A DNA stretch of 64,000 nt from Yponomeuta sedellus (lineage: Eukaryota > Arthropoda > Insecta > Lepidoptera > Yponomeutidae): the NCBI GenBank assembly GCA_934045075.1, contig OW203740.1:21217878-21281877 (forward strand), written 5' to 3'. Positions within the stretch are counted from its first letter, which is position 1; every line of letters starts with the position of its first letter. The notes beneath the pieces were generated by a model that saw only the letters and a list, made by a program, of their open reading frames with translations, was not told the DNA's origin and did not search any database. This document shows positions 528 through 39,080 of this stretch, piece after piece. A program made the position numbers and the translations under genes.

Positions 528-1353
528 TTTTTTTTTTTTGGTAACGCGGGGGAATGCATTTACGCACTTCACCGCTCTGCTGTCAGGGGACAACAGAGCG
601 GCTTCGTGTGGGACTCCCAGCGACACGGAGCTGGCATAACCTCCGTGACGACTGGACTACCCACTAAACCCCCGCGGTGATCCTCCTCTCCTCTACCGGG
701 TCGCGGGGTAGGCCATAGGCTAAATCACCGCGACCCGGCAAGAGGTCGCCCCTCCGCGTGAGGGGCTCGACTGGTGGGGGAGCCAGAGTGGCTCCCCAGC
801 GGCGCCCCCTGCCCCATCGCAACGCCTCATACGATGGGGCAAGGAAACGCCGCGTCTCCTCAGGGGGGCCGTATAGGCCCCCATACGCTCCAACGCGCCG
901 CCCTCCCCCGACCCATTGCCCATACAATAGGACAAGAGGAGGGCGGCGCATCGCTGCGAGGCCCGTCGCGTCGCTCACCAGCGCTTTTCTGATGAAACAG
1001 AGAAGGTGGAGAGCGAGCGCGCGGGCCCTCTCTGTGCTGGAAGGCACCCCCGGATCACGCAGGGGCGCCTTCCAGCCCGCCGTGTTAGAGGCGGAGGGTC
1101 CCCTGACCCTCCGCCCACGGCCCTCTGGTCCGACTGGTACGAGGCGCACGAGGCGCCCCCCCCAGCCGGACCTCCTACTCTTGGTCGCCTGGGTCCCGCT
1201 CCACGGTGTGAAGCAGGGCCCAAGCGACGCCACCTTCGACCGCTCCAAGGAGCGGTCCCTCCGTGGTTGCTCTTAGTTTCACCGTGGGTGGCCGTCCAAC
1301 ACCCACGGCTACTTAGCCCCCTCGCCACGACAAGGCGGCAACCGTCGAGGGGG
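528..1353 (-). mobile_element. TSR unit 1, subfamily A (complete, 15-bp TSD)
   Basis: Short GC-rich retroposon whose RNA strand is minus: ribozyme-like 5' end at the right, hairpin-rich body, 3' end GCATTCCCCCGCGTTACC then poly(A) (poly-T 528-539). Subfamily A is marked by the block CGACACGGAGCTGGCATAACC near the 3' end and by a 9-bp hairpin GACCGCTCC/GGAGCGGTC next to the 5' domain. Overlapping open frames on both strands have no recognisable domain and are treated as chance frames in stop-poor DNA. Confidence 0.85.
1265..1353 (-). ncRNA. Candidate HDV-like self-cleaving ribozyme, 5' end of unit 1
   Basis: Numbering from the 5' end of the element (position 1353): P1 pairs nt 1-7 CCCCCTC with 31-37 GAGGGGG; P3 pairs 16-19 with 26-29 around a six-base loop; P4 pairs 46-54 CCGTGGGTG with 64-72 CACCCACGG; P2 pairs 11-15 GGTTG with 85-89 CAACC. 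The J4/2 strand is TGAAACTAAGAG, with a C-N-A-A-G placed where the catalytic C lies in the HDV family. Predicted cleavage is immediately 5' of nt 1, which is the observed element end. Nothing has been tested; P1.1 is unresolved and nt 1 is C rather than the usual G. Confidence 0.62.
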
Positions 1354-1383: not shown

Positions 1384-2420
1384 TTTTTTTTTTTTTTGGT
1401 AACGCGGGGGAATGCATTTACGCACTTCACCACTCTGCTGTCAGGGGACAACAGAGCGGCTTCGTGTGGGACTCCCAGCCCGAGGGCTGGACTACCCACT
1501 AAACCCCCGCGGTGATCCTCCTCTCCTCTACCGGGTCGCGGGGTAGGCCAAAGGTTAAGTCACCGCGACCCGGCAAGAGGTCGCCCCTCCACGTGAGGGG
1601 CTCGACTGGTGGGGGAGCCAGAGTGGCTCCCCAGCGGTGCCCCCTGCCCCATCGCTACGACGGGGCAAGGAAACGCCGCGTCTCCTCGGGGGGGCCATGT
1701 AGGCCCCCATACGCTCCAATGCGCCGCCCCCCCACATCCCATTGCTAAAACAATGGGACTAGAGGGGGCGGCGCATCGCTGCGAGGCCCGTCGCGTCGCT
1801 CACCAGCGCCTCTCTGATGAAGCAGAGAAGGTGGAGAGCGAGCGCGCGGGCCCTCTCTGTGCTGGAAGGCACCCCCGGATCACGCAGGGGCGCCTTCCGG
1901 CCCGCCGTGTTAGAGGCTGAGGGTCCCCTGACCCTCCGCCCACGGCACTGGTCCGACTGGTACGAGGCGCTCGGACGCCCCCCCCAGCCGGACCTCCTCC
2001 TCTTGGTCGCTTGGGTCCCACTCCACGGTGTGAAGCAGGGCCCAAGCGACTAAACAGTCGCAGGGGATAGGGAGAGAGGCGCACCGCAATACCAGCACTC
2101 CTCTTCCCCTGCGACCCCACCGCGTCCGCCATCAACCGGTGGCGGCCCCGGTAAGGCCGCGGCAGGCAGGGAGAGCGGCGCACCGCAATACCGGCACTCC
2201 TCTCCCACCGCGGCCTCCTCCCTTCGGCTGCGATGCCGCCCATACGACATCGCAGCCCGCCTCAGTGGCGGTGCTGCCCATACAGCACCGCCACCTACTG
2301 ACCGCTCAACTCGCGAGCGAGGAGCGGTCCCTCCTGGGTTGCTCTTAGTTTCACCGTGGCGGTCCTGAACCACGGCTACTTAGCCCCCTCGCCACGACAA
2401 GGCGGCAACCGTCGAGGGGG
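1384..2420 (-). mobile_element. TSR unit 2, subfamily B (complete)
   Basis: Subfamily B carries CCCGAGGGCTGG near the 3' end in place of the A block. It has an extra 5' half made of hairpins: CGCAGGGGA/TCCCCTGCG, GCGATGCCGCCCATACGACATCGC and GGCGGTGCTGCCCATACAGCACCGCC. The last 84 nt fold like the ribozyme of unit 1 with a shorter P4 (CCGTGG/CCACGG). The end is followed by an extra AGGGGG before AGGTTAGG. Confidence 0.85.
2337..2420 (-). ncRNA. Candidate HDV-like ribozyme, short-P4 variant
   Basis: P1, P2 and P3 sequences match unit 1. P4 is a six-pair stem CCGTGG/CCACGG with a different loop, and J4/2 keeps C-T-A-A-G. The changed P4 still pairs, which supports the fold. Confidence 0.6.
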
Positions 2421-2436: not shown

Positions 2437-3482
2437 TTTTTTTTTTTTTTGGTAACGCGGGGGGAATGCATTTACGCACTTCACCACTCTGCTGTCAGGG
2501 GACAACAGAGCGGCTTCGTGTGGGACTCCCAGCCCGAGGGCTGGACTACCCACTAAACCCCCGCGGTGATCCTCCTCTCCTCTACCGGGTCGCGGGGTAG
2601 GCCATAGGTTAAGTCACCGCGACCCGGCAAGAGGTCGCCCCACTGGAGGGGCTCGACTGGTGGGGGAGCCAGAGTGGCTCCCCAGCGGCGCCCCCTGCCC
2701 CATCGCAACGACGGAGCAAGGGAACGCCGCGTCTCCTCAGGGGGGCCATATAGGCCCCCATACGCTCCAATGCGCCGCCCCCCCACATCACATTGCTAAA
2801 ACAATGGGACTAGAGGGGGCGGCGCATCGCTGCGAGGCCCGTCGCGTCGCTCACCAGCGCTTCTCTGAGAACAGAGAAGGTGGAGAGCGAGCGCGCGGGC
2901 CCTCTCTGTGCCGGAAGGCACCCCCGGATCACGCAGGGGCGCCTTCCGGCCCGCCGTGTTAGAGGCTGAGGGTCCCCTGACCCTCCGCCCACGGCCTTGG
3001 TCCGACTGGTACGAGGCGCACAAGGCGCCCCCCCCAGCCGGACCTCCTCCTCTTGGTCGCTTGGGTCCCACTCCACGGTGTGAAGCAGGGCCCAAGCGAC
3101 TAAACGGTCGCAGGGGATAGGGAGAGAGGCGCACCGCAATACCAGCACTCCTCCTCCCCTGCGACCCCACCGCGTCCGCCATCAGCCGGTGGCGGCCCCG
3201 GTAAGGCCGCGGCAGGCAGGGAGAGCGGCGCACCGTAATACCGGCACTCCTCTCCCGCCGCGGCCTCCTCCGTACGGCTGCGATGCCGCCCATACGGCAT
3301 CGCAGCCCGCCTCAGTGGCGGTGCTGCCCATACAGCACCGCCACCTACTGACCGCTCGACTCGCAAGCGAGGAGCGGTCCCTCCGCGGTTGCTCTTGGTT
3401 TCACCGTGGGTGTGTTCCCGCCCGTAGGCCCCCACGGCTACTTAGCCCCCTCGCCACGACAAGGCGGCAACCGTCGAGGGGG
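2437..3482 (-). mobile_element. TSR unit 3, subfamily B (complete)
   Basis: Differs from unit 2 by a CACTGGAGGGGC version of the 3' hairpin, GAGAACAGAG in place of GATGAAGCAGAG in the central hairpin, and a long-loop P4 in the 5' domain. Confidence 0.85.
3387..3482 (-). ncRNA. Candidate HDV-like ribozyme, long-L4 variant
   Basis: P1, P2 and P3 are as in unit 1. P4 is CCGTGGG/CCCACGG closed by a 20-base loop, and J4/2 reads TGAAACCAAGAG, so N of C-N-A-A-G is C here and T in unit 1. Confidence 0.6.
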
Positions 3483-3499: not shown

Positions 3500-4549
3500 T
3501 TTTTTTTTTTTTTTGGTAACGCGGGGGAATGCATTTACGCACTTCACCACTCTGCTGTCAGGGGACAACAGAGCGGCTTCGTGTGGGACTCCCAGCCCGA
3601 GGGCTGGACTACCCACTAAACCCCCGCGGTGATCCTCCTCTCCTCTACCGGGTCGCGGGGTAGGCCAAAGGTTAAATCACCGCGACCCGGCAAGAGGTCG
3701 CCCCTCCACGTGAGGGGCTCGACTGGTGGGGGAGCCAGAGTGGCTCCCCAGCGGCGCCCCCTGCCCCATCGCTACGACGGGGCAAGGAAACGCCGCGTCT
3801 CCTCGGGGGGGCCATATAGGCCCCCATTCGCTCCAATGCGCCGCCCCCCCCCATCCCATTGCTAAAACAATGGGACTAGAGGGGGCGGCGCATCGCTGCG
3901 AGGCCCGTCGCGTCGCTCACCAGCGCTTCTCTGAGAACAGAGAAGGTGGAGAGCGAGCGCGCGGGCCCTCTCTGTGCTGGAAGGCACCCCCGGATCACGC
4001 AGGGGTGCCTTCCGGCCCGCCGTGTTAGAGGCGGAGAGTCCCCTGACCCCCCGCCCACGGCACTGATCCGACTGGTACGAGGCGCACAAGGCGCCCCCCC
4101 CCAGCCAGACCTCCTCCTCTTGGTCGCCCGGGTCCCGCTCCACAGTGTGAAACAGGGCCCAGGCGACTAGACGGTCGCAGGGGATAGGGAGAGAGGCGCA
4201 CCGCAATACCAGCACTCCTCCTCCCCTGCGACCCCACCGCGTCCGCCATCAACCGGTGGCGGCCCCGGTAAGGCCGCGGCAGGCAGGGAGAGCGGCGCAC
4301 CGTAATACCGGCACTCCTCTCCCGCCGCGGCCTCCTCCCTTCGGCTGCGATGCCGCCCATACGACATCGCAGCCCGCCTCAGTGGCGGTGCTGCCCATAC
4401 AGCACCGCCACCTACTGACCGCTCGACTCGCAAGCGAGGAGCGGTCCCTCCGCGGTTGCTCTTGGTTTCACCGTGGGTGTGTTCCCGCCCGTAGGCCCCC
4501 ACGGCTACTTAGCCCCCTCGCCACGACAAGGCGGCAACCGTCGAGGGGG
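3500..4549 (-). mobile_element. TSR unit 4, subfamily B (complete)
   Basis: Long-L4 5' domain. Carries the GGTCGCCCGGGTCC form of the central stem opposite CCCAGGCGAC, and a slightly altered GGGGTGCCTTCC arm. Two-base telomeric spacer differences only from unit 3 at its right edge. Confidence 0.83.
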
Positions 4550-4566: not shown

Positions 4567-5394
4567 TTTTTTTTTTTTTGGTTACGCGGGGGAATGCATT
4601 TACGCACTTCACCGCTCTGCTGTCAGGGGACAACAGAGCGGCTTCGTGTGGGACTCCCAGCGACACGGAGCTGGCATAACCTCCGTGACGACTGGACTAC
4701 CCACTAAACCCCCGCGGTGATCCTCCTCTCCTCTACCGGGTCGCGGGGTAGGCCATAGGCTAAATCACCGCGACCCGGCAAGAGGTCGCCCCGTGAGGGG
4801 CTCGACTGGTGGGGGAGCCAGAGTGACTCCCCAGCGGCGCCCCCTGCCCCATCGCAACGCCTCATACGATGGGGCAAGGAAACGCCGCGTCTCCTCAGGG
4901 GGGCCCTATAGGCCCCCATACGCTCCAACGCGCCGCCCCCCCCCGACCCATTGCCCATACAATAGGACAGGAGGAGGGCGGCGCATCGCTGCGAGGCCCG
5001 TCGCGTCGCTCACCAGCGCTTCTCTGATGAAGCAGAGAAGGTGGAGAGCGAGCGCGCGGGCCCTCTCTGTGCTGGAAGGCACCCCCGGATCACGCAGGGG
5101 CGCCTTCCAGCCCGCCGTGTTAGAGGCGGAGGGTCCCCTGACCCTCCGCCCACGGCCCTCTGATCCGACTGGTACGAGGCGCACGAGGCGCCCCCCCCAG
5201 CCGGACCTCCTACTCTTGGTCGCCTGGGTCCCGCTCCACGGTGTGAAGCAGGGCCCAAGCGACGCCACCTCCGACCGCTCCAAGGAGCGGTCCCTCCGTG
5301 GTTGCTCTTAGTTTCACCGTGGGTGGCCGTCTAACACCCACGGCTACTTAGCCCCCTCGCCACGACAAGGCGGCAACCGTCGAGGGGGGGGGGG
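4567..5394 (-). mobile_element. TSR unit 5, subfamily A (complete)
   Basis: A-type 3' block, CGCCTCATACGATGGGGC hairpin and short 5' half. The right end runs into a longer G tract (about 14 G) before AGGTT, so the exact 5' terminus is blurred. Confidence 0.83.
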
Positions 5395-6140: not shown

Positions 6141-7192
6141 TTTTTTTTTTTTTTTTTGGTAACGCGGGGGAATGCATTTACGCACTTCACCACTCTGCTG
6201 TCAGGGGACAACAGAGCGGCTTCGTGTGGGACTCCCAGCCCGAGGGCTGGACTACCCACTAAACCCCCGCGGTGATCCTCCTCTCCTCTACCGGGTCGCG
6301 GGGTAGGCCATAGGTTAAATCACCGCGACCCGGCAAGAGGTCGCCCCTCCACTAGAGGGGCTCGACTGGTGGGGGAGCCAAAGTGGCTCCCCAGCGGCGC
6401 CCCCTGCCCCATCGCTACGACGGGGCAAGGAAACGCCGCGTCTCCTCGGGGGGGCCATATAGGCCCCCATTCGCTCCAATGCGCCGCCCCCCCCCATCCC
6501 ATTGCTAAAACAATGGGACTAGAGGGGGCGGCGCATCGCTGCGAGGCCCGTCGCGTCGCTCACCAGCACCTCTCTGAGAACAGAGAAGGTGGAGAGCGAG
6601 CGCGCGGGCCCTCTCTGTGCTGGAAGGCACCCCCGGATCACGCAGGGGCGCCTTCCGGCCCGCCGTGTTAGAGGCGGCGGGTCCCCTGACCCTCCGCCCA
6701 CGGCCCTGGTCCGACTGGTACGAGGCGCACAAGGCGCCCCCCCCCAGCCGGACCTCCTCCTCTTGGTCGCCCGGGTCCCGCTCCACAGTGTGAAACAGGG
6801 CCCAGGCGACTAGACGGTCGCAGGGGATAGGGAGAGAGGCGCACCGCTATACCAACAATCCTCTTCCCCTGCGACCCCACCGCGTCCGCCATCAGCCGGT
6901 GGCGGCCCCGGTAAGGCCGCGGCAGGCAGGGAGAGCGGCGCACCGTAATACCGGCACTCCTCTCCCGCCGCGGCCTCCTCCCTTCGGCTGCGATGCCGCC
7001 CATACGACATCGCAGCCCGCCTCAGTGGCGGTGCTGCCCATACAGCACCGCCACCTACTGACCGCTCAACTCGCAAGCGAGGAGCGGTCCCTCCGCGGTT
7101 GCTCTTGGTTTCACCGTGGGTGTGTTCCCGCCCGTAGGCCCCCACGGCTACTTAGCCCCCTCGCCACGACAAGGCGGCAACCGTCGAGGGGG
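6141..7192 (-). mobile_element. TSR unit 7, subfamily B (complete)
   Basis: Identified by CTCCACTAGAGGGGC in the 3' hairpin and the TATACCAACAATCCTC variant in the 5' half. Long-L4 ribozyme-like end, then extra G-rich bases and three telomeric repeats. Confidence 0.83.
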
Positions 7193-7608: not shown

Positions 7609-8645
7609 TTTTTTTTTTTAGGTAACGCGGGGGAATGCATTTACGCATTTCACCACTCTGCTGTCAGGGGACAACAGAGCGGCTTCGTGTGGGACTCCCA
7701 GCCGGAGGGCTGGACTACCCACTAAACCCCCGCGGTGATCCTCCTCTCCTCTACCGGGTCGCGGGGTAGGCCAAAGGTTAAATCACCGCGACCCGGCAAG
7801 AGGTCGCCCCTCCACGTGAGGGGCTCGACTGGTGGGGGAGCCAAAGTGGCTCCCCAGCGGCGCCCCCTGCCCCATCGCTACGACGGGGCAAGGAAACGCC
7901 GCGTCTCCTCGGGGGGGCCATATAGGCCCCCATACGCTCCAATGCGCCGCCCCCCCCCATCCCATTGCTAAAACAATGGGACTAGAGGGGGCGGCGCATC
8001 GCTGCGAGGCCCGTCGCGTCGCTCACCAGCGCTTCTCTGATGAAGCAGAGAAGGTGGAGAGCGAGCGCGCGGGCCCTCTCTGTGCCGGAAGGCACCCCCG
8101 GATCACGCAGGGGCGCCTTCCGGCCCGCCGTGTTACAGGAGGAGAGTCCCCTGACCCTCCGCCCACGGCCCTGGTCCGACTGGTACGAGGCGCACAAGGC
8201 GCCCCCCCCAGCCGGACCTCCTCCTCTTGGTCGCCCGGGTCCCGCTCCACAGTGTGAAACAGGGCCCAGGCGACTAGACGGTCGCAGGGGATAGGGAGAG
8301 AGGCGCACCGCTATACCAGCACTCCTCTTCCCCTGCGACCCCACCGCGTCCGCCATCAACCGGTGGCGGCCCCGGTAAGGCCGCGGCAGGCAGGGAGAGC
8401 GGCGCACCGTAATACCGGCACTCCTCTCCCGCCGCGGCCTCCTCCCTTCGGCTGCGATGCCGCCCATACGACATCGCAGCCCGCCTCAGTGGCGGTGCTG
8501 CCCATACAGCACCGCCACCTACTGACCGCTCAACTCGCGAGCGAGGAGCGGTCCCTCCTGGGTTGCTCTTAGTTTCACCGTGGCGGTCCTGAACCACGGC
8601 TACTTAGCCCCCTCGCCACGACAAGGCGGCAACCGTCGAGGGGGG
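7609..8645 (-). mobile_element. TSR unit 9, subfamily B (complete)
   Basis: Near-identical to units 16 and 29, sharing the rare GTTACAGGAGGAGAG variant and the short-P4 5' domain. The poly-T is followed by AGGTAACG instead of GGTAACG. Confidence 0.85.
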
Positions 8646-8658: not shown

Positions 8659-10694
8659 TTTTTTTTTTTTTTTTGGTTACGCGGGGGAATGCATTTACGC
8701 ACTTCGGCGCCCTGTTGCCGGGGGACAACAAGGCGCCTTTGTGTGGGACTCCCAGCCCGGAGGCTGGACTACCCACTAAACCCCCGCGGTGTTCCTCCTC
8801 TACTCTACCGGGTCACGGGATATGCCAGAGGTTAAGTCACCGTGACCCGGCGAGAGGGCGTCCCATAGGACTCTCCTTGTGAGGGGGGGCCGCACGGACC
8901 CCCCCTGCGCTATGAAAGCGTCGACTTGCCCGCACGCCCGCCCCCCGGGGCTCCTCTGTATTCAGAGGAGGCCGTGGGCGGGCGCGCGGGCACCCTATGT
9001 TTTGCCGGAAGGCACCCCGGAACACGCGAAGGCGCCTTCCGGCTCGCCGTGATGGTGGGCGGGGGGTCCCCCGACCCTCCGCCCACGGCCGCTCTAGTCG
9101 GGGGTGCGCGCATATCCCGCGCGGCGCCGCCCCCTATTTGGACGGCGGGGCGGGAGCGTGAGCCCTGCCCGCTCCCGTTCCCGCAGCTCCTCTCGTTTGG
9201 CCGCCATCACCTCGCTAGCGAACGTGGCGACGGCGGCCCAACTCTCTTGGCTGCCGGCCATTTGCGGGATAATGGCCGGCAGCGACAGGTCGGCCCCCAC
9301 AACGGCCATGAGGGAGGTCCGCTGCGCGCTCCAGGCGGAGCACACAGCTAGCGTGTGCTCCGCCGTATCCTCCTCGTTGGACGCGCAGTACCGGCACTCG
9401 GGGCCCGACTCTATCCCTACCACCTCCCACAGGTACTTGGCAAAGCAGCCGTGACCTGTGAGGAGTTGGGTCAGGTGATAGGTCGACGCCCCGTGCGCCC
9501 GCTCCACCCATGGCCGCAGGACCGGCCGGACCGCCTCCACGAGTCTCCGACTCGCGGAGGGGTCCTCCAACCTCAGGGCCCACCTTCGGAAGAGATCGTC
9601 GCGAGCCTCCTGCCTCCAACGTACGATCTCTGCCGGGGTGGGCCACCCTCCACTGTTCCGCATCAGGGCACTCCGCTCGTACACCTCCCTGAGGACTCCC
9701 GCCTCGAGGTCCCAGGGGAGACTCGCCGCTAACAAACACGCCGCCTCGTAGGAGACGGTGTGGTACGCTCTTGCAGCCCTCTGCGCTATTACCCGTTGCG
9801 GGCGGCGCAACAAAGCTATGTTGCTAGCGCAGAGGGCCTCCGCCCATATGGGCGCTCCATACAGTGCTTTGGAGCGCACCACACCGTCGTAGAGGCGGCG
9901 ACAAGAGCTCCCCGGACCACCGCTGTTAGGCAGCAACCTCGCGAGCCTCCCGGCATACGACACCAGCTTTGGCGTCAGCTGCCGGAAGTGCTCGCGGAAA
10001 CTCCACCGACTGTCGAGGACCAGTCCCAGGTACTTCATGGTACCCCCGACAGCGATGGAGGCGCCACCAACGGTGATCTCGGAACCTCGAGGCGGCCTCA
10101 TCCGAGGCCCATAAAAGAACATGGCCTCGGACTTCTCGAGGGCGACCGTGAGCCCTAGTGCCCTGATGCGGCGCACGACCTGCGCTACTCCCGCCGTAGC
10201 CAGGACCTTGGCGTCCCGGAAAGTGGGTCCTCGCGCGGTGACCAGGGTGTCGTCGGCGTAACAGAGTACGCCGACTCCCCGAAGAGTGGTACCGCGCAGG
10301 ACCCAGTCGTACCCGACGTTCCACAGGAGCGGCCCGAGCACCGACCCCTGTGGAACACCGCAGGACATCTCCCTGCGGACCACTTCCGACCGGGACGGGT
10401 AACACACGGCCCGGTCTACGAAGTAGTCCGCAAGGACCCGCCTGAGGTACCACGGCACTTCGTGGTACCCCAGGGCCTCCGCTATGGCCTGCCAGGGGAG
10501 GGTATTGAAGGCGTTGGAGATGTCTAAAGAGACAGCCAACAACACCTCCCCCCGGCCAGTCACCTCCACGACGCTGTCTCTGAGACGGGAGATGGCGTCC
10601 AACGTCGATCTCCCGCGACGGAAGCCGAATTGGTCGCCGCTCAAGTTGGGCCCCGCCCCCTCCAGGTGCCGGACGAGACGCGCAGCGAGGGGGG
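8659..10694 (-). mobile_element. R1/TRAS-like telomeric LINE, 5'-truncated
   Basis: Poly-T joined to GGTTAGG on the left; right end cut off inside the RT domain and joined to AGGTTAGG. The 3' UTR (8673-9093) ends in the same GCGGGGGAATGCATTTACGCACTT block (on +) as the TSR units and shares further blocks TGTGGGACTCCCAGC and ACTAAACCCCCGCGGTG, plus the GGAAGGCGCC...GGTGCCTTCC hairpin. It is therefore the best candidate for the TSR-A/B partner. Confidence 0.85.
9094..10689 (-). CDS. R1/TRAS-like reverse transcriptase, C-terminal part
   Basis: Copies element RNA into DNA at a nicked telomeric target. The frame is open from the truncated right edge; the first Met (10644) is internal and is not a real start. 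Seen in order: SGDQFGFRRGRSTLDA (RT), VSLDISNAFNTLPW, the PQGSVLGPLLWN motif, the catalytic CYADDTL, a thumb region, then CRYCASNEEDTAEHTLAVC, the C-terminal CCHC finger of R1-clade LINEs. No RNase H domain is present, unlike the other LINEs here. The endonuclease and ORF1 are lost by truncation, so this copy cannot move by itself. The tail is Arg-rich. Confidence 0.88.
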   Translation of the reverse strand, partial: LAARLVRHLEGAGPNLSGDQFGFRRGRSTLDAISRLRDSVVEVTGRGEVLLAVSLDISNAFNTLPWQAIAEALGYHEVPWYLRRVLADYFVDRAVCYPSRSEVVRREMSCGVPQGSVLGPLLWNVGYDWVLRGTTLRGVGVLCYADDTLVTARGPTFRDAKVLATAGVAQVVRRIRALGLTVALEKSEAMFFYGPRMRPPRGSEITVGGASIAVGGTMKYLGLVLDSRWSFREHFRQLTPKLVSYAGRLARLLPNSGGPGSSCRRLYDGVVRSKALYGAPIWAEALCASNIALLRRPQRVIAQRAARAYHTVSYEAACLLAASLPWDLEAGVLREVYERSALMRNSGGWPTPAEIVRWRQEARDDLFRRWALRLEDPSASRRLVEAVRPVLRPWVERAHGASTYHLTQLLTGHGCFAKYLWEVVGIESGPECRYCASNEEDTAEHTLAVCSAWSAQRTSLMAVVGADLSLPAIIPQMAGSQESWAAVATFASEVMAAKREELRERERAGLTLPPRRPNRGRRRAGYARTPD

Positions 10695-10724
10695 AGGTTA
10701 GGTTAGGTTAGGTTAGGTTAGGTT
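10695..10724 (+). repeat. Telomeric (GGTTA)n tract
   Basis: Five repeats between the truncated LINE and unit 11, starting AGG and ending GGTT as at every minus-strand insertion. Confidence 0.9.
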
Positions 10725-11774
10725 TTTTTTTTTTTTTTTTTGGTAACGCGGGGGAATGCATTTACGCACTTCACCACTCTGCTGTCAGGGGACAACAGAG
10801 CGGCTTCGTGTGGGACTCCCAGCCCAAGGGCTGGACTACCCACTAAACCCCCGCGGTGATCCTCCTCTCCTCTACCGGGTCGCGGGGTAGGCCAAAGGTT
10901 AAATCACCGCGACCCGGCAAGAGGTCGCCCCACTGGAGGGGCTCGACTGGTGGGGGAGCCAGAGTGGCTCCCCAGCGGCGCCCCTTGCCCCATCGCAACG
11001 ACGGAGCAAGGGAACGCCGCGTCTCCTCAGGGGGGCCATATAGGCCCCCATACGCTCCAATGCGCCGCCCCCCCCCATCCCATTGCTAAAACAATGGGAC
11101 TAGAGGGGGCGGCGCATCGCTGCGAGGCCCGTCGCGTCGCTCACCAGCGCTTCTCTGAGAACAGAGAAGGTGGAGAGCGAGCGCGCGGGCCCTCTCTGTG
11201 CTGGAAGGCACCCCCGGATCACGCAGGGGCGCCTTCCGGCCCGCCGTGTTAGAGGCGGAGAGTCCCCTGACCCCCCGCCCACGGCACTGATCCGACTGGT
11301 ACGAGGCGCCCGGAGGCGCCCCCCCCCAGCCGGACCTCCTCCTCTTGGTCGCTTGGGTCCCACTCCACGGTGTGAAGCAGGGCCCAAGCGACTAAACGGT
11401 CGCAGGGGACAGGGAGAGAGGCGCACCGCAATACCAGCACTCCTCCTCCCCTGCGACCCCACCGCGTCCGCCATCAACCGGTGGCGGCCCCGGTAAGGCC
11501 GCGGCAGGCAGGGAGAGCGGCGCACCGTAATACCGGCACTCCTCTCCCGCCGCGGCCTCCTCCCTTCGGCTGCGATGCCGCCCATACGGCATCGCAGCCC
11601 GCCTCAGTGGCGGTGCTGCCCATACAGCACCGCCACCTACTGACCGCTCGACTCGCAAGCGAGGAGCGGTCCCTCCGCGGTTGCTCTTGGTTTCACCGTG
11701 GGTGTGTTCCCGCCCGTAGGCCCCCACGGCTACTTAGCCCCCTCGCCACGACAAGGCGGCAACCGTCGAGGGGG
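10725..11774 (-). mobile_element. TSR unit 11, subfamily B (complete)
   Basis: CACTGGAGGGGC hairpin as in unit 3 and a GCCCGGAGGCGCC insertion in the central block. Long-L4 5' domain. Confidence 0.85.
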
Positions 11775-11779: not shown

Positions 11780-12613
11780 TTTTTTTTTTTTTTTGGTTAC
11801 GCGGGGGAATGCATTTACGCACTTCACCGCTCTGCTGTCAGGGGACAACAGAGCGGCTTCGTGTGGGACTCCCAGCGACACGGAGCTGGCATAACCTCGG
11901 TGACGACTGGACTACCCACTAAACCCCCGCGGTGATCCTCCTCTCCTCTACCGGGTCGCGGGGTAGGCCATAGGCTAAATCACCGCGACCCGGCAAGAGG
12001 TCGCCCCGTGAGGGGCTCGACTGGTGGGGGAGCCAGAGTGGCTCCCCAGCGGCGCCCCCTGCCCCATCGCAACGCCTCATACGATGGGGCAAGGAAACGC
12101 CGCGTCTCCTCAGGGGGGCCCTATAGGCCCCCATACGCTCCAACGCGCCGCCCCCCCCCGACCCATTGCCCATACAATAGGACAAGAGGAGGGCGGCGCA
12201 TCGCTGCGAGGCCCGTCGCGTCGCTCACCAGCGCTTCTCTGATGAAGCAGAGAAGGTGGAGAGCGAGCGCGCGGGCCCTCTCTGTGCTGGAAGGCACCCC
12301 CGGATCACGCAGGGGCGCCTTCCAGCCCGCCGTGCTAGAGGCAGAGGGTCCCCTGACCCTCCGCCCACGGCCCTCTGGTCCGACTGGTACGAGGCGCACG
12401 AGGCGCCCCCCCCAGCCGGACCTCCTACTCTTGGTCGCCTGGGTCCCGCTCCACGGTGTGAAGCAGGGCCCAAGCGACGCCACCTCCGACCGCTCCAAGG
12501 AGCGGTCCCTCCGTGGTTGCTCTTAGTTTCACCGTGGGTGGCCGTCCAACACCCACGGCTACTTAGCCCCCTCGCCACGACAAGGCGGCAACCGTCGAGG
12601 GGGGTCGAGGGGG
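11780..12613 (-). mobile_element. TSR unit 12, subfamily A (complete, duplicated 5' terminus)
   Basis: Nearly identical to unit 14. The 5' end reads GTCGAGGGGG twice in a row before AGGTTAGG. Confidence 0.85.
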
Positions 12614-12628: not shown

Positions 12629-14695
12629 TTTTTTTTTTTTTTTTTCGCGTTGGAGGAGGGGAATACTCATGTATACCACCGAACCCGTGCTCGGTGGCAT
12701 GCCCGACTCTACTGGGAATTTCTCCCAGCAGCCTACGGACTAAACCCCTCCCCCTGTTAGTTCCTGTCGCTATTTATTATGCGACAACTTTTGTCACTGC
12801 AATGTTAAAATGCTGATACACAATTTTCCCTTTCATATTTCTTATCCTATATTACATAATTACACAGCAATTACACAGCAAGAATACATTTATCCTTGCA
12901 CATAATTATAATCGTTTGCACTTAATTAATCTTTTTTTTTTTTTTTGAGTCTATTCTTACACTAGGTTAGATACTATTTACAGTCTTGTCTTAATCTGAC
13001 TTAAAATAAACATGTATGACATAATCTGACTTAAAATAAACATGTGGATATGGGTGTGGACGTGGAGCGGTCGCTTCCTATTTAGTCAAAGCAAATACTA
13101 CCGTTATTTTTGTTAGCCCGCATCGCGATTTGTTCCGCATAATCGAGGAATGTCTCCCTATATTTGTCGTTATTGACTAATATAGCGTAATTATCATTGC
13201 AAATCTTTATCCCTAATTTCTGTTCAATGTCCAATCTTTGTTTACCGTAAACCACGCATTCGTTTAATAAGTGGGGTACATCCTGGGGGCTGCTTCCGTC
13301 ACAATCACAATATGGATGGTCTTTGATTTTAAATCTGTACAAGTATGCGCCAAAACCACCATGCCCGGTAAGTATTTGTGATCTTAGATTGTACATTTCC
13401 ATTTTTGTGAGTGTTTTGTAGGCCTGTCTCACGTCCGGGAAGAATAATTTGGTTACGGCTCCTGTGCTTCCGCTGCTGTACTCTTGTTGCCAATCGCAGA
13501 TTGTGCTTGTTCTGAGGCTGTACTTTAAGTATGATATAGGGACCCCGTCGTAGACAGCTCTCTGCTTATTTTTTAACGCTGCTTGCTTAGCAAGTTCGTC
13601 TGCTCTCTCATTTCCTGGGATTCCGGCGTGGGCTTTAATCCAGTACAACTTGATGTGGCCTCCGTTACTCTCTAGTGAGCTCAAGTCCTCGTGTGCTTTT
13701 ACCACGAGCGGGTGGGTACTAGTGGGGTCTTTTATAGCCTCAAGCGCCGATCTGGAATCGCTGATGATGTTGGCTTTCTTGCCTCTGTCTTCCCGTGCCA
13801 TTTTTATTGCGCAGATGATTGCAGTCAGTTCAGCCTGGTACACTGTGCAATAATTTTCAAGCCTGCAACCTCGCTTTTTGACTTCTTTGCCGTCTTCCCA
13901 CCAAGATACAGCTGCACCGACCCTGCCTTCAATTTTGCTCCCGTCCGTGTAGATCTGCGGCCAGCCGTTGCTGATCTTGTCAACGTCACTGGCATGGTTG
14001 ATGATGTCGAACCCTGGCCCCTTACGTTCGGCTGGATGCGGAAGGTGGAAGACACTCACTCTCTTCTCGATGGTTCGCCCCGGAAGCTCCTCAATTGGTT
14101 TCCCTCGCTTCATCCCGTATAGTGCTGCTGCCTCTTTCAGTCTGAGGTCTAGGGGAATTATTCTTGCAAGTGTGGAGCTTGACGCGAGAGAAGCGGTCTT
14201 GTGTGTCTTTGCAGACCTTATAGCGAACATACGTGTTAGCTTATCTAACCATCGTTTGACGTTCTTATTATCTATAGCTGGAGCCCAAACGCTAGCGGCG
14301 TAGAGAACAATCGGTTCGATGACAGCTGTATATATTGTTCTCACAATGTCCGCGTTTAGGCCCCAGGTTGCTCTTGCAGCTTTGGATACTGCTCTGTAAA
14401 TGTTGGTAACCTTTACTGCTATTTTCTTGAGGTGCGGTATGAAGTTCAAGTGTTTGTCAATAGTTAATCCTAGCACCATTATTTCGTCGGACAACATGAT
14501 GTCGGTACCGTTCATTTTAAAATCTGGTTTATCGTATTTCAGCTTCTTTGTCACTATCATGGCTTGTGTTTTGTGGGCCGCAAAATTCAGCTTGTTTTCG
14601 CCGCCAAAAGCTGATATGTCGTTCAGCGTTTTGTTTACTATGGCCGTAAGATCTCGAGTATTGTCGGAGTACGCGATCAGCAGCAGATCATCGGC
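12629..14695 (-). mobile_element. RNase-H-bearing LINE (R1/LOA-like), 5'-truncated
   Basis: Poly-T joined to GGTTAGGTT; right end stops at the RT catalytic ADD and joins AGGTTAGG. The 3' UTR (about 12646-13081) is A+T-rich, has no similarity to the TSR tail, and holds two short tandem repeats: TAATCTGACTTAAAATAAAC starting near 12992 and 13022, and ATTACACAGCA near 12860. Confidence 0.83.
13082..14695 (-). CDS. LINE ORF2 fragment: RT end, RNase H, CCHC finger
   Basis: Open from the truncation point, where the frame begins with ADDLLLIAYSDN, so the RT palm is lost just before its catalytic motif. Then follow the thumb (LGLTIDKHLNF), a type I RNase H with the acidic residues in YTDGSK, QAEL, SDSRSA and NERADELA, and a C-terminal CDCDGSSPQDVPHLLNEC finger after ILTGHGGFG. 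The Met at 14560 is internal. Cannot be active. The arrangement fits the R1/LOA/I group; the exact clade needs a tree. Confidence 0.85.
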   Translation of the reverse strand, partial: ADDLLLIAYSDNTRDLTAIVNKTLNDISAFGGENKLNFAAHKTQAMIVTKKLKYDKPDFKMNGTDIMLSDEIMVLGLTIDKHLNFIPHLKKIAVKVTNIYRAVSKAARATWGLNADIVRTIYTAVIEPIVLYAASVWAPAIDNKNVKRWLDKLTRMFAIRSAKTHKTASLASSSTLARIIPLDLRLKEAAALYGMKRGKPIEELPGRTIEKRVSVFHLPHPAERKGPGFDIINHASDVDKISNGWPQIYTDGSKIEGRVGAAVSWWEDGKEVKKRGCRLENYCTVYQAELTAIICAIKMAREDRGKKANIISDSRSALEAIKDPTSTHPLVVKAHEDLSSLESNGGHIKLYWIKAHAGIPGNERADELAKQAALKNKQRAVYDGVPISYLKYSLRTSTICDWQQEYSSGSTGAVTKLFFPDVRQAYKTLTKMEMYNLRSQILTGHGGFGAYLYRFKIKDHPYCDCDGSSPQDVPHLLNECVVYGKQRLDIEQKLGIKICNDNYAILVNNDKYRETFLDYAEQIAMRANKNNGSICFD

Positions 14696-14720
14696 AGGTT
14701 AGGTTAGGTTAGGTTAGGTT
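14696..14720 (+). repeat. Telomeric (GGTTA)n tract
   Basis: Five repeats between the truncated LINE and unit 14. Confidence 0.88.
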
Positions 14721-15546
14721 TTTTTTTTTTTTTTTTTGGTTACGCGGGGGAATGCATTTACGCACTTCACCGCTCTGCTGTCAGGGGACAACAGAGCGGC
14801 TTCGTGTGGGACTCCCAGCGACACGGAGCTGGCATAACCTCCGTGACGACTGGACTACCCACTAAACCCCCGCGGTGATCCTCCTCTCCTCTACCGGGTC
14901 GCGGGGTAGGCCATAGGCTAAATCACCGCGACCCGGCAAGAGGTCGCCCCGTGAGGGGCTCGACTGGTGGGGGAGCCAGAGTGGCTCCCCAGCGGCGCCC
15001 CCTGCCCCATCGCAACGCCTCATACGATGGGGCAAGGAAACGCCGCGTCTCCTCAGGGGGGCCCTATAGGCCCCCATACGCTCCAACGCGCCGCCCCCCC
15101 CCGACCCATTGCCCATACAATAGGACAAGAGGAGGGCGGCGCATCGCTGCGAGGCCCGTCGCGTCGCTCACCAGCGCTTCTCTGATGAAGCAGAGAAGGT
15201 GGAGAGCGAGCGCGCGGGCCCTCTCTGTGCTGGAAGGCACCCCCGGATCACGCAGGGGCGCCTTCCAGCCCGCCGTGCTAGAGGCAGAGGGTCCCCTGAC
15301 CCTCCGCCCACGGCCCTCTGGTCCGACTGGTACGAGGCGCACGAGGCGCCCCCCCCAGCCGGACCTCCTACTCTTGGTCGCCTGGGTCCCGCTCCACGGT
15401 GTGAAGCAGGGCCCAAGCGACGCCACCTCCGACCGCTCCAAGGAGCGGTCCCTCCGTGGTTGCTCTTAGTTTCACCGTGGGTGGCCGTCCAACACCCACG
15501 GCTACTTAGCCCCCTCGCCACGACAAGGCGGCAACCGTCGAGGGGG
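14721..15546 (-). mobile_element. TSR unit 14, subfamily A (complete)
   Basis: Matches unit 12 almost base for base, including the CCGTGCTAGAGGCAGAGG variant, but ends with a single GTCGAGGGGG. Confidence 0.85.
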
Positions 15547-15576: not shown

Positions 15577-16498
15577 TTTTTTTTTTTTTTGGTAACGCGG
15601 GGGAATGCATTTACGCACTTCACCACTCTGCTGTCAGGGGACAACAGAGCGGCTTCGTGTGGGACTCCCAGCCCGAGGGCTGGACTACCCACTAAACCCC
15701 CGCGGTGATCCTCCTCTCCTCTACCGGGTCGCGGGGTAGGCCAAAGGTTAAATCACCGCGACCCGGCAAGAGGTCGCCCCTCCACGAGGGGCTCGACTGG
15801 TGGGGGAGCCAGAGTGGCTCCCCAGCGGCGCCCCCTGCCCCATCGCTACGACGGGGCAAGGAAACGCCGCGTCTCCTCGGGGGGGCCATATAGGCCCCCA
15901 TACGCTCCAATGCGCCGCCCCCCCCCATCCTAGACTAGAGGGGGCGGCGCATCGCTGCGAGGCCCGTCGCGTCGCTCACCAGCGCCTCTCTGATGAAGCA
16001 GAGAAGGTGGAGAGCGAGCGCGCGGGCCCTCTCTTTGCCGGAAGGCACCCCCGGATCACGCAGGGGCGCCTTCCGGCCCGCCGTGTTAGAGGCGGAGAGT
16101 CCCCTGACCCTCCGCCCACGGCCCTGATCCGACTGGTACGAGGCGCACAAGGCGCCCCCCCCAGCCGGACCTCCTCCTCTTGGTCGCCCGGGTCCCGCTC
16201 CACAGTGTGAAACAGGGCCCAGGCGACTAAACGGTCGCAGGGGATAGGGAGAGAGGCGCACCGTAATACCGGCACTCCTCTCCCGCCGCGGCCTCCTCCG
16301 TACGGCTGCGATGCCGCCCATACGGCATCGCAGCCCGCCTCAGTGGCGGTGCTGCCCATACAGCACCGCCACCTACTGACCGCTCGACTCGCAAGCGAGG
16401 AGCGGTCCCTCCGCGGTTGCTCTTGGTTTCACCGTGGCGGTCCTGAACCACGGCTACTTAGCCCCCTCGCCACGACAAGGCGGCAACCGTCGAGGGGG
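15577..16498 (-). mobile_element. TSR unit 15, subfamily B, internally deleted
   Basis: Lacks the stretch between the two internal GCGCACCGYAATACC repeats, fusing them into one (near 16256), and lacks the CCCATTGCTAAAACAATGGG hairpin. Both termini and the short-P4 ribozyme-like end are kept. Confidence 0.83.
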
Positions 16499-16503: not shown

Positions 16504-17551
16504 TTTTTTTTTTTTTTGGTAACGCGGGGGAATGCATTTACGCACTTCACCACTCTGCTGTCAGGGGACAACAGAGCGGCTTCGTGTGGGACTCCCAGCC
16601 AGAGGGCTGGACTACCCACTAAACCCCCGCGGTGATCCTCCTCTCCTCTACCGGGTCGCGGGGTAGGCCAAAGGTTAAATCACCGCGACCCGGCAAGAGG
16701 TCGCCCCTCCACGTGAGGGGCTCGACTGGTGGGGGAGCCAAAGTGGCTCCCCAGCGGCGCCCCCTGCCCCATCGCTACGACGGGGCAAGGAAACGCCGCG
16801 TCTCCTCGGGGGGGCCATATAGGCCCCCATACGCTCCAATGCGCCGCCCCCCCCCATCCCATTGCTAAAACAATGGGACTAGAGGGGGCGGCGCATCGCT
16901 GCGAGGCACGTCGCGTCGCTCACCAGCGCTTCTCTGATGAAGCAGAGAAGGTGGAGAGCGAGCGCGCGGGCCCTCTCTGTGCCGGAAGGCACCCCCGGAT
17001 CACGCAGGGGCGCCTTCCGGCCCGCCGTGTTACAGGAGGAGAGTCCCCTGACCCTCCGCCCACGGCCCTGGTCCGACTGGTACGAGGCGCACAAGGCGCC
17101 CCCCCCAGCCGGACCTCCTCCTCTTGGTCGCCCGGGTCCCGCTCCACAGTGTGAAACAGGGCCCAGGCGACTAGACGGTCGCAGGGGATAGGGAGAGAGG
17201 CGCACCGCTATACCAGCACTCCTCTTCCCCTGCGACCCCACCGCGTCCGCCATCAACCGGTGGCGGCCCCGGTAAGGCCGCGGCAGGCAGGGAGAGCGGC
17301 GCACCGTAATACCGGCACTCCTCTCCCGCCGCGGCCTCCTCCCTTCGGCTGCGATGCCGCCCATACGACATCGCAGCCCGCCTCAGTGGCGGTGCTGCCC
17401 ATACAGCACCGCCACCTACTGACCGCTCAACTCGCGAGCGAGGAGCGGTCCCTCCTGGGTTGCTCTTAGTTTCACCGTGGCGGTCCTGAACCACGGCTAC
17501 TTAGCCCCCTCGCCACGACAAGGCGGCAACCGTCGAGGGGGGTCGAGGGGG
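16504..17551 (-). mobile_element. TSR unit 16, subfamily B (complete, duplicated 5' terminus)
   Basis: Copy of the unit 9/29 type (GTTACAGGAGGAGAG). Ends with GTCGAGGGGGG-TCGAGGGGG before AGGTT, and has no telomeric spacer beyond AGGTT. Confidence 0.85.
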
Positions 17552-23734: not shown

Positions 23735-23993
23735 CCGTAATACCGGCACTCCTCTCCCGCCGCGGCCTCCTCCCTTCGGCTGCGATGCCGCCCATACGAC
23801 ATCGCAGCCCGCCTCAGTGGCGGTGCTGCCCATACAGCACCGCCACCTACTGACCGCTCAACTCGCAAGCGAGGAGCGGTCCCTCCGCGGTTGCTCTTGG
23901 TTTCACCGTGGGTGTGTTCCCGCCCGTAGGCCCCCACGGCTACTTAGCCCCCTCGCCACGACAAGGCGGCAACCGTCGAGGGGGTCGAGGGGG
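23735..23993 (-). mobile_element. TSR unit 17, right (5') part
   Basis: Resumes at CCGTAATACCGGCACTCC and runs to a long-L4 ribozyme-like end with a repeated TCGAGGGGG terminus. Confidence 0.82.
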
Positions 23994-24008: not shown

Positions 24009-25045
24009 TTTTTTTTTTTTTTGGTAACGCGGGGGAATGCATTTACGCACTTCACCACTCTGCTGTCAGGGGACAACAGAGCGGCTTCGTGTGGGACTCC
24101 CAGCCCGAGGGCTGGACTACCCACTAAACCCCCGCGGTGATCCTCCTCTCCTCTACCGGGTCGCGGGGTAGGCCAAAGGTTAAATCACCGCGACCCGGCA
24201 AGAGGTCGCCCCTCCACGTGAGGGGCTCGACTGGTGGGGGAGCCAAAGTGGCTCCCCAGCGGCGCACCCTGCCCCATCGCTACGACGGGGCAAGGAAACG
24301 CCGCGTCTCCTCGGGGGGGCCATATAGGCCCCCATACGCTCCAATGCGCCGCCCCCCCCCATCCCATTGCTAAAACAATGGGACTAGAGGGGGCGGCGCA
24401 TCGCTGCGAGGCCCGTCGCGTCGCTCACCAGCGCCTCTCTGATGAAGCAGAGAAGGTGGAGAGCGAGCGCGCGGGCCCTCTCTGTGCTGGAAGGCACCCC
24501 CGGATCACGCAGGGGCGCCTTCCGGCCCGCCGTGTTAGAAGCTGAGGGTCCCCTGACCCTCCGCCCACGGCACTGGTCCGACTGGAACGAGGCGCTCGGA
24601 CGCCCCCCCCAGCCGGACCTCCTCCTCTTGGTCGCTTGGGTCCCACTCCACGGTGTGAAGCAGGGCCCAAGCGACTAAACGGTCGCAGGGGATAGGGAGA
24701 GAGGCGCACCGCAATACCAGCACTCCTCTTCCCCTGCGACCCCACCGCGTCCGCCATCAACCGGTGGCGGCCCCGGTAAGGCCGCGGCAGGCAGGGAGAG
24801 CGGCGCACCGTAATACCGGCACTCCTCTCCCGCCGCGGCCTCCTCCCTTCGGCTGCGATGCCGCCCATACGACATCGCAGCCCGCCTCAGTGGCGGTGCT
24901 GCCCATACAGCACCGCCACCTACTGACCGCTCGACTCGCAAGCGAGGAGCGGTCCCTCCGCGGTTGCTCTTGGTTTCACCGTGGCGGTCCTGAACCACGG
25001 CTACTTAGCCCCCTCGCCACGACAAGGCGGCAACCGTCGAGGGGG
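24009..25045 (-). mobile_element. TSR unit 18, subfamily B (complete)
   Basis: Has GGCGCACCCTGCC in place of GGCGCCCCCTGCC, and GACTGGAACGAGG in the block shared with TSR-D. Short-P4 ribozyme-like end. Confidence 0.84.
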
Positions 25046-25050
25046 AGGTT

Positions 25051-30553: not shown

Positions 30554-30883
30554 AGTGCTGGAAGGCACCCCCGGATCACGCAGGGGCGCCTTCCAGCCCG
30601 CCGTGTTAGAGGCGGAGGGTCCCCTGACCCTCCGCCCACGGCCCTCTGGTCCGACTGGTACGAGGCGCACGAGGCGCCCCCCCCAGCCGGACCTCCTACT
30701 CTTGGTCGCCTGGGTCCCGCTCCACGGTGTGAAGCAGGGCCCAAGCGACGCCACCTCCGACCGCTCCAAGGAGCGGTCCCTCCGTGGTTGCTCTTAGTTT
30801 CACCGTGGGTGGCCGTCCAACACCCACGGCTACTTAGCCCCCTCGCCACGACAAGGCGGCAACCGTCGAGGGGGTCGAGGGGG
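30554..30883 (-). mobile_element. TSR unit 19, right (5') part
   Basis: Continues from GTGCTGGAAGGCAC to an A-type ribozyme-like end whose last nine bases TCGAGGGGG are duplicated. Confidence 0.85.
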
Positions 30884-30893: not shown

Positions 30894-31946
30894 TTTTTTT
30901 TTTTTTTTTGGTAACGCGGGGAATGCATTTACGCACTTCACCGCTCTGCTGTCAGGGGACAACAGAGCGGCTTCGTGTGGGACTCCCAGCCCGAGGGCTG
31001 GACTACCCACTAAACCCCCGCGGTGATCCTCCTCTCCTCTACCGGGTCGCGGGGTAGGCCAAAGGTTAAATCACCGCGACCCGGCAAGAGGTCGCCCCTC
31101 CACGTGAGGGGCTCGACTAGTGGGGGAGCCGAAGTGGCTCCCCAGCGGCGCCCCCTGCCCCATCGCTACGACGGGGCAAGGAAACGCCGCGTCTCCTCGG
31201 GGGGGCCATAAAGGCCCCCATACGCTCCAATGCGCCGCCCCCCCACATCACATTGCTAAAACAATGGGACTAGAGGGGGCGGCGCATCGCTGCGAGGCCC
31301 GTCGCGTCGCTCACCAGCGCTTCTCTGAGAACAGAGAAGGTGGAGAGCGAGCGCGCGGGCCCTCTCTGTGCCGGAAGGCACCCCCGGATCACGCAGGGGC
31401 GCCTTCCGGCCCGCCGTGTTAGAGGCGGAGAGTCCCCTGACCCCCCGCCCACGGCACTGATCCGACTGGTACGAGGCGCCCGGAGGCGCCCCCCCAGCCG
31501 GACCTCCTCCTCTTGGTCGCTTGGGTCCCACTCCACGGTGTGAAGCAGGGCCCAAGCGACTAAACGGTCGCAGGGGACAGGGAGAGAGGCGCACCGCAAT
31601 ACCAGCACTCCTCTTCCCCTGCGACCCCACCGCGTCCGCCATCAACCGGTGGCGGCCCCGGTAAGGCCGCGGCAGGCAGGGAGAGCGGCGCACCGTAATA
31701 CCGGCACTCCTCTCCCGCCGCGGCCTCCTCCTTACGGCTGCGATGCCGCCCATACGGCATCGCAGCCCGCCTCAGTGGCGGTGCTGCCCATACAGCACCG
31801 CCACCTACTGACCGCTCGACTCGCAAGCGAGGAGCGGTCCCTCCGCGGTTGCTCTTGGTTTCACCGTGGGTGTGTTCCCGCCCGTAGGCCCCCACGGCTA
31901 CTTAGCCCCCTCGCCACGACAAGGCGGCAACCGTCGAGGGGGGGGG
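30894..31946 (-). mobile_element. TSR unit 20, subfamily B (complete)
   Basis: Carries GCGGGGAATGC (one G fewer) at the 3' end, CGACTAGTGGGGGAG, and GCCATAAAGGCCCCC in place of GCCATATAGGCCCCC. Long-L4 5' domain. Confidence 0.84.
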
Positions 31947-31951: not shown

Positions 31952-32778
31952 TTTTTTTTTTTTGGTAACGCGGGGGAATGCATTTACGCACTTCACCACT
32001 CTGCTGTCAGGGGACAACAGAGCGGCTTCGTGTGGGACTCCCAGCCCGAGGGCTGGACTACCCACTAAACCCCCGCGGTGATCCTCCTCTCCTCTACCGG
32101 GTCGCGGGGTAGGCCAAAGGTTAAATCACCGCGACCCGGCAAGAGGTCGCCCCTCCACGTGAGGGGCTCGACTAGTGGGGGAGCCAAAGTGGCTCCCCAG
32201 CGGCGCCCCCTGCCCCATCGCTACGACGGGGCAAGGAAACGCCGCGTCTCCTCGGGGGGGCCATAAAGGTCCCCATACGCTCCAATGCGCCGCCCCCCCA
32301 CATCACATTGCTAAAACAATGGGACTAGAGGGGGCGGCGCATCGCTGCGAGGCCCGTCGCGTCGCTCACCAGCGCTTCTCTGAGGACAGAGAAGGCGGAG
32401 AGCGAGCGCGCGGGCCCTCTCTGTGCCGGAAGGCACCCCCGGATCACGCAGGGGCGCCTTCCGGCCCGCCGTGTTAGAGGCGGAGAGTCCCCTGACCCCC
32501 CGCCCACGGCCCTGATCCGACTGGTACGAGGCGCCCGGAGGCGCCCCCCCCCAGCCGGACCTCCTCCTCTTGGTCGCTTGGGTCCCACTCCACGGTGTGA
32601 AGCAGGGCCCAAGCGACTAAACGGTCGCGGTGCTGCCCACACAGCACCGCCACCTACTGACCGCTCAACTCGCAAGCGAGGAGCGGTCCCTCCGCGGTTG
32701 CTCTTTGTTTCACCGTGGTCCCGCAACCACGGCTACTAAAGCCCCCTCGCCACGACAAGGCGGCAACCGTCGAGGGGG
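31952..32778 (-). mobile_element. TSR unit 21, subfamily B-short
   Basis: Shares the CTAGTGGG and CCATAAAGG variants with unit 20, but the 5' half is cut down: GGTCGCGGTGCTGCCCACACAGCACCGCC replaces about 220 bp of hairpins. Same form as unit 23. Confidence 0.84.
32696..32778 (-). ncRNA. Candidate HDV-like ribozyme, B-short variant
   Basis: P1, P2 and P3 are unchanged. P4 is CCGTGGT/ACCACGG with loop TGCGGG, J4/2 is TGAAACAAAGAG (N of C-N-A-A-G is A), and J1.1/4 is CTTTAGTAG in place of CTAAGTAG. The stem differs in sequence from units 1, 2 and 3 yet pairs fully. Confidence 0.6.
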
Positions 32779-38971: not shown

Positions 38972-39080
38972 GTGGGCAGAATAAAGGAGGCAAGTGATTA
39001 CGACGTAAAACGAAGATACGACGACGACGACGAACGACACCGCGTGTCGGTGAAGACGGAAGACGCCATTACCCGGTGCA

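Follow-up and report, generated by a model that had tools for sequence, protein, structure and literature searches.

Self-cleaving ribozymes of the HDV type have been documented in R2, R4, L1Tc and RTE elements (PMC3774820). The R2 ribozyme combines a P1 of 6-7 bp, a P2 of at least 5 bp, a catalytic C and few fixed active-site letters with a variable P4 and a J1/4 of 0-2 nt (PMC3774820). Short derivatives may carry such a structure as well. The R2 SIDEs and R2/R1 hybrid SIDEs of Drosophila, which lie in 28S genes, join a 5' R2 ribozyme to a LINE 3' end, and self-cleavage in vitro was reported for ribozymes of R2-derived SIDEs (PMC3414825). In trypanosomatids, an HDV-like ribozyme is common to a LINE and its short deleted derivatives (L1Tc/NARTc, SIDER); its 77-nt sequence doubles as an internal promoter, and no tie to telomere repeats is described in the available part of that source (PMC4035085). 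In Bombyx, whose telomerase activity is undetectable by TRAP (PMC7265360), the TTAGG repeats are the target of the autonomous TRAS and SART elements, which insert in opposite orientations, carry poly(A) tails and need their 3' UTR (PMC7265360, PMC4700185); the word "ribozyme" has 0 occurrences in the available texts of these two papers. The Terminons/Penelope-like elements are attached to telomeric repeats and carry a self-cleaving motif, but the motif is a hammerhead, and the elements are giant and of another class (PMC7761336).

The window analysed here, a single stretch of 64 kb from Yponomeuta sedellus that provided all data, holds two families of short elements, F1 on the minus strand and F2 on the plus strand. 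As in the Drosophila SIDEs, a 5' HDV-like fold is combined with a LINE 3' end; unlike them, F1 and F2 lie in TTAGG repeats, form two families in opposite orientations and have different ribozyme sequences, with lengths of ~0.8-1 kb. The helix lengths, candidate catalytic C, few fixed letters and variable P4 recall the R2 ribozyme, whereas J1/4 is longer in F1, L3 has a large insertion in F2, and both families are found outside rDNA. Target, opposite orientations and A tails are shared with TRAS and SART, and the attachment of a self-cleaving motif to telomeric repeats with the Terminons. Among the literature matches listed, chiefly non-subscription texts, no description of an HDV-like ribozyme in a TTAGG-targeted element was found; folds of this type are already known, and their use in elements that target telomeres appears to be new.

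The array and its two element families

The window covers a telomeric array whose plus strand reads TTAGG, in 16 tracts of two or more repeats each; CCTAA tracts are absent from that strand. F1 is represented by 24 units with a full start, alongside at least two truncated copies that lack the 5' part, and F2 by four units. Uninterrupted F1 units measure ~0.81 kb (short) or ~1.03 kb (long), with one of 0.91 kb. In the F1 alignment 118 of 764 columns are variable, and the longest invariant runs (64 and 47 columns near the 3' end, 39 at the 5' end) lie where they would be expected if those parts were needed. The F2 body is ~80% identical to that of F1 over 296 nt, and the F2 5' end, GGGGTGCGATGCCAGATTACC, is unrelated to the F1 5' end. 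A tails are 13-19 nt long at F1-type ends (mean 16.5, n=26, two ends of the telomeric LINE A included) and 20, 20, 23 and 44 nt in the four F2 copies. Coordinates are collected in Table 1.

Several observations concern the array itself. The flanks of unit 1 (1354-1381 and 500-525) contain TTAGG repeats abutting non-telomeric sequence at a TTTGGG/TTAGG seam, possibly a healed chromosome end. One F1 unit (25049-25531 and 30555-30874) is interrupted by a LINE (25773-30514) that has no flanking telomere repeats. The 3' end of this unit copy, at ~25064, lies ~28 nt short of the usual one and has an A17 tail nonetheless, which weakens the idea that F1-type A tails were copied from DNA. Two frames inside the array, 18066-23005 (minus strand) and 39054-43091 (plus strand), look by eye like LTR-type retroelements, the former interrupting an F1 unit (break between 23733 and 17866).

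An origin of F1 and F2 as Pol III SINEs was rejected for want of convincing internal A and B boxes. The B-box core GWTCRANNC was absent from F1 short, F1 long and F2; degenerate matches were limited to B boxes with two mismatches (one in F1 long, two in F2) and, towards the 3' end of F1 short and F1 long alike, an A box with one mismatch. Viral and prokaryotic contigs gave 0 exact matches to a ribozyme word, and viral contigs 0 to a word from the 3' tail, as would be expected if the element belongs to insects.

Table 1. Coordinates of the 5' folds, 3' folds and associated elements in the window
Feature	Position	Strand	Remarks
F1 unit 1, whole short-class element, 814 nt	540..1353	-	A14 tail at 526-539; TSD AACCCAAATGGATTC
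F1 unit 1 HDV-like ribozyme (P1, P2, P3, P4, J4/2)	1265..1353	-	predicted cut 5' of base 1353
P1 5' strand, nt 1-7, CCCCCTC	1347..1353	-	unit 1
P1 3' strand, nt 31-37, GAGGGGG	1317..1323	-	unit 1
P2 5' strand, nt 11-16, GGTTGC	1338..1343	-	unit 1
P2 3' strand, nt 84-89, GCAACC	1265..1270	-	unit 1; base 89 = 1265
P3 nt 18-20/28-30, GCC/GGC, with L3 UUGUCGU (21-27)	1324..1336	-	unit 1
P4 nt 46-54/64-72	1282..1308	-	unit 1
J4/2 C-N-A-A-G, nt 78-82	1272..1276	-	candidate catalytic C = nt 78 = 1276
F1 ribozyme	2327..2420	-	descriptor match at base 1
F1 ribozyme	3377..3482	-	descriptor match at base 1
F1 ribozyme	4444..4549	-	descriptor match at base 1
F1 ribozyme	5290..5388	-	descriptor match at base 1
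F1 ribozyme	7087..7192	-	descriptor match at base 1
F1 ribozyme	8551..8644	-	descriptor match at base 1
F1 ribozyme	11669..11774	-	descriptor match at base 1
F1 ribozyme	12505..12603	-	descriptor match at base 1
F1 ribozyme	15448..15546	-	descriptor match at base 1
F1 ribozyme	16405..16498	-	descriptor match at base 1
F1 ribozyme	17448..17541	-	descriptor match at base 1
F1 ribozyme, unit split between 23733 and 17866	23879..23984	-	descriptor match at base 1
F1 ribozyme	24952..25045	-	descriptor match at base 1
F1 ribozyme, unit split by a LINE	30776..30874	-	descriptor match at base 1
F1 ribozyme	31837..31942	-	descriptor match at base 1
F1 ribozyme variant, N = A, J1/4 CTTTAG	32686..32778	-	descriptor match at base 1
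F1 ribozyme; flank duplication partly non-telomeric, AACCTAACCAGAGT	49924..50028	-	descriptor match at base 1
F1 ribozyme variant, N = A, J1/4 CTTTAG	50792..50884	-	descriptor match at base 1
F1 ribozyme	52712..52817	-	descriptor match at base 1
F1 ribozyme	53787..53892	-	descriptor match at base 1
F1 ribozyme	54860..54965	-	descriptor match at base 1
F1 ribozyme	55704..55808	-	descriptor match at base 1
F1 ribozyme	56774..56867	-	descriptor match at base 1
F2 HDV-like fold, copy 1	32825..32988	+	large insertion in L3; descriptor match
F2 copy 32825 P1	32825-32831/32922-32928	+	F2 copy 1
F2 copy 32825 P2	32835-32842/32981-32988	+	F2 copy 1
F2 copy 32825 P3	32843-32845/32919-32921	+	F2 copy 1
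F2 copy 32825 P4	32932-32941/32965-32974	+	F2 copy 1
F2 copy 32825 candidate catalytic C	32976	+	F2 copy 1
F2 HDV-like fold, second copy	33778..33941	+	descriptor match
F2 copy, one broken P2 pair (A.G)	56923..57086	+	without descriptor match
F2 HDV-like fold, fourth copy	57840..58003	+	descriptor match
R2-type 3' RNA fold, F1 unit 1	545..676	-	fold comparison
R2-type 3' RNA fold, F2 copy	57698..57806	+	fold comparison
LINE A, 5'-truncated telomeric LINE	8675..10697	-	3' UTR parts shared with F1, 79-80% identity
R2-type 3' UTR of LINE B (13082-14698)	12649..12811	-	RF00524, 50 bits vs gathering 38

An HDV-like fold at the 5' ends

An earlier note on this DNA had described an HDV-like fold at the start of unit 1, and its helices and coordinates proved exact there. 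The nested double pseudoknot it had read (P1-P2-P3-P1'-P4-CNAAG-P2') was recovered at all 24 F1 starts, and the N of C-N-A-A-G is T, C or A between fixed neighbours, as it had stated; CNAAG itself is present in 24/24 F1 units. In HDV-like ribozymes the catalytic C lies in J4/2, in a C-N-R-A context. P4 is flanked in all 24 units by AGUA (nt 41-44) opposite GAA (nt 74-76; ~1278-1313, minus strand), an arrangement that we take to resemble the loop E (bulged-G) motif. Against an HDV-like reading, P1.1 in F1 has, by eye, G23-C38 as its one good pair plus a U.U mismatch, and J1/4 exceeds the R2 range. F1 CCUUGUCGUGG is identical at 9 of 11 bases to the conserved CCUCCUCGUGG of R2Dm (PMC5035012). 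An HDV-like reading of the F1 5' end is supported by the position of the fold at base 1 in all 24 units, by its invariant core with a variable P4 tip and N, and by the shuffle controls and the second family described below.

The second family, absent from that account, has the same fold on the opposite strand. By descriptor it was found at base 1 in three of the four F2 copies, and J4/2 reads CGAAA in these three. When the P1-P3 pairs of unit 1 were compared with those of the F2 copy at 57840, 11 of 16 had changed on both sides, none on one side and five were equal, with all of them paired; all P1-P3 pairs are formed in the copy at 32825 too. L3 reads, by eye, UUCCCGU or UCCCCGU in F2 against UUGUCGU in F1 (consensus U[U/C][G/C][U/C]CGU); by the same inspection the U and G letters of L3 seem to be there in both families, and the candidate pair of P1.1, a helix that looks intact in F2, changes from G-C in F1 to C-G in F2. 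The F2 P1 starts with a G.U pair, as does that of HDV. Between L3 and P3', F2 has an insertion of ~66 extra nt that folds as a hairpin, which is unusual for an HDV-like fold.

The specificity of the fold was examined with a descriptor, either loose (P1 of 7 bp, P2 of at least 5, P3 of 3, P4 of at least 4, and C-N-R-A-[AG]) or strict (P2 of at least 6 and P4 of at least 7). The loose form alone is not specific, as 47 of its 74 rows in the window lie away from element starts. The strict form gave 29 matches, 27 of them at element starts and two in copies of one segment of LINE A (9323 and 51559), which were set aside as false positives lying away from any element end; in 40 block-shuffled windows the mean was 1.4 strict matches, or 0.075 with a P1 span of no more than 45. 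Dinucleotide shuffling of the first 130 nt of unit 1 produced any match at base 1 in 5 of 20,000 cases and a strong (strict) one in none. For the first 190 nt of the F2 copy at 32825, shuffled sequences matched at base 1 in 11 of 51,283 cases and strongly in two, and none combined a P2 of at least 7 with a P4 of at least 8 (the real F2 has 9 and 13 by the same descriptor); a separate 5,000 shuffles gave two matches of any kind and no strong one at base 1.

Variation within F1 is distributed unevenly. In 21 of the 24 units (30874, 23984 and 8644, with split or composite 3' ends, were omitted), one of 47 columns is variable in nt 1-47 (pi 0.004), 12 of 26 in nt 48-75 around P4 (pi 0.19) and 3 of 18 in nt 76-93 (pi 0.08), the body having a pi of 0.026-0.071. 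The eight distinct F1 5' rows share invariant pairs in P1 (7), P2 (6), P3 (3) and the core-proximal part of P4 (6), the stem CCGTGG/CCACGG being common to every P4 version while the distal pairs alone vary. The earlier note had pointed to P4 versions that differ and still pair. Distal and tip variation was indeed seen, but it makes a weak covariation argument. One P4 pair is altered on both sides; equal pairing was reached by 148 of 500 shuffles and the count of both-sided pairs by 473, although the covariation score was reached by only 21. Covariation support from F1 alone is at most faint, and the replacement of pairs between the two families is the better evidence for the fold.

The covariance-model check suggested in the earlier note, which had counted a miss as refutation, gave no Rfam HDV match above background. 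Neither the window, searched by cmscan at the gathering cut-offs and at E<=3, nor a single 5' end of each family, searched at E<=10, matched an HDV family, other matches being mostly miRNA-named hairpins below cut-offs. This result was weighed lightly because P2 crosses P1, so that the two cannot be modelled together, and because conservation in HDV-like ribozymes is limited to some five nucleotides (PMC4870747). A covariance model built from F1 recovered the 24 sequences it was made from and, beyond these, only two matches of 8.4 bits; as it did not find F2, it cannot link F1 to F2.

Element boundaries and the telomeric LINEs

The earlier note had placed the predicted cut exactly at the element end defined by the target-site duplication. 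This held for unit 1 and for about half of the units: in 12 of the 24 F1 units, C1 is immediately preceded by a duplication of at least 14 nt that contains non-repeat letters. In five (1353, 12603, 17541, 32778 and 52817) the longest duplication, of 14-16 nt with non-repeat letters, ends exactly there; in eight the match continues 1-5 nt into the C run and its end is ambiguous, seven of these still having at least 14 nt with non-repeat letters that end at C1, while in the eighth (56867) the part before C1 is purely telomeric. Two F1 flanks show a purely telomeric duplication and four have AACCT alone in common. The claim did not hold for the remaining five (7192, 3482, 31942, 5388 and 2420), where the match ends 1-6 nt upstream of C1 with extra C-rich bases, possibly non-templated, in between. 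The flanks of 53892 and 4549, both among the seven just named, may be tandem duplications. Extra copies of CCCCCTCGA upstream of some units were considered as re-copied 5' ends, and this was rejected since most fit duplications that include the neighbour's 5' end. In F2 the first G directly follows AGGTT in three copies, and the copy at 56923 has an extra GGGGT between.

At the other end, a 3' plan is common to F1, F2, LINE A and LINE B, consisting of a closing stem, a UUUAGU stem-loop that has an internal loop, a further stem-loop and a third, small stem. In an alignment of seven sequences both partners vary in 10 of the 32 predicted pairs, although the covariation term is near zero (-0.12). 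The 3' ends of F1, F2 and LINE A gave no match to the RF00524 model (F1 unit 1 and one F2 copy being tested), and the shared plan was not clearly seen in the folded 3' ends of LINEs D, E and F. As nt 602-828 and 224-356 of F1 unit 1 are 79-80% identical to the LINE A 3' UTR, F1 resembles a LINE with an internal deletion. The window has two copies of LINE A, each lacking its 5' part, and no plus-strand LINE belonging to F2 was seen in it.

LINE B carries an RNase H (13082-14698), and its protein is 44-50% identical to those of LINEs D and E. The LINE E open frame (43966-47493, minus strand) has Pfam RT and RNase H but no endonuclease, and its 5' end possibly extends to 49191; no descriptor match was found in the stretch around ~49180, the possible LINE E 5' end. 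Protein matches of LINE D bear R1-type names, not R2, and, judged by such database match names, the telomeric LINEs appear to resemble the R1 clade. For two LINE frames, the best 120 of 722 and of 199 protein matches were unnamed metagenome proteins and named, mostly lepidopteran ones; the latter, among the matches listed, come from Loxostege, Parnassius, Arctia, Tuta and others (55-64% identity for the top named rows), and a few of those listed are labelled bee, ant or bacterial.

Origin of the elements and alternative explanations

We consider it probable, at about 0.82, that F1 and F2 are SIDE-type derivatives of R1-like telomeric LINEs whose 5' ends are freed by a putative HDV-like ribozyme and whose 3' fold is recognised by the donor protein. 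The fold, its position at base 1, the pair replacement between two families, the flanking duplications and the 3' end common to F1 and LINE A are seen in the sequence; from these we infer cleavage, read-through transcription, the strand nicked and the protein donor. A transcript running through the telomere would be cut immediately upstream of base 1 and so acquire a defined 5' end. The R2-type 3' fold and A tail would then let a LINE protein begin target-primed reverse transcription where one strand is nicked, the TTAGG strand for F1 and the CCTAA strand for F2. By orientation, F1 corresponds to the TRAS site and F2 to the SART site as given in PMC7265360. Cutting of read-through RNA and its copying by a LINE protein would be the simplest account by analogy with the R2 SIDEs (PMC3414825).

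A fold that arose by chance in GC-rich, hairpin-rich sequence might account for the many loose descriptor rows away from element starts, but it is extremely improbable given how seldom shuffled sequence of either family matched at base 1 and given that the only strict matches off element starts, 2 of 29, are copies of one LINE segment. Another reading is a conserved but non-catalytic RNA, such as a signal for LINE protein binding or packaging, that merely resembles the HDV order. Conserved structured 5' RNAs do occur in LINEs, and the imperfect look of P1.1 in F1 and the interruption of L3 in F2 would suit such a role. Against it, the first base of both families is also the first base of P1, the letter at N in CNAAG changes although its neighbours are fixed, and, judged by eye, L3 and J4/2 keep their letters where those in pairs change; we regard it as unlikely.

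The structure could also be a ribozyme that was once active and is now inactive, carried along by recent copying or gene conversion of a few master units. The F1 units are very similar, and long identical flanks resembling those of tandem duplicates are shared (53892/52817), as such copying would predict; however, the variable columns of the F1 alignment hardly touch the 5' core, and the eight distinct 5' rows all retain P1, P2 and P3. This explanation is accordingly judged improbable, somewhat more so than a non-catalytic RNA. Within the preferred reading of SIDE-type derivatives with a putative ribozyme, a further and rather doubtful suggestion concerns the source of the RNA. Telomeric transcripts of both strands might act as a promoterless source, C-rich RNA feeding F1 and G-rich TERRA-like RNA feeding F2, with separately evolved ribozymes chopping tandem co-transcripts to unit length and the ribozyme of the next unit setting the 3' end; the arrays would then process themselves with neither Pol III nor a private promoter.

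If the preferred reading is true, a ribozyme can turn telomeric read-through RNA into templates for retrotransposition, tied to R1-like LINEs. The two families, with their largely replaced helices and a large L3 insertion, would offer a natural experiment on the importance of individual positions in the fold, and the finding would bear on the way in which the TTAGG arrays of Lepidoptera become filled with retroelements.
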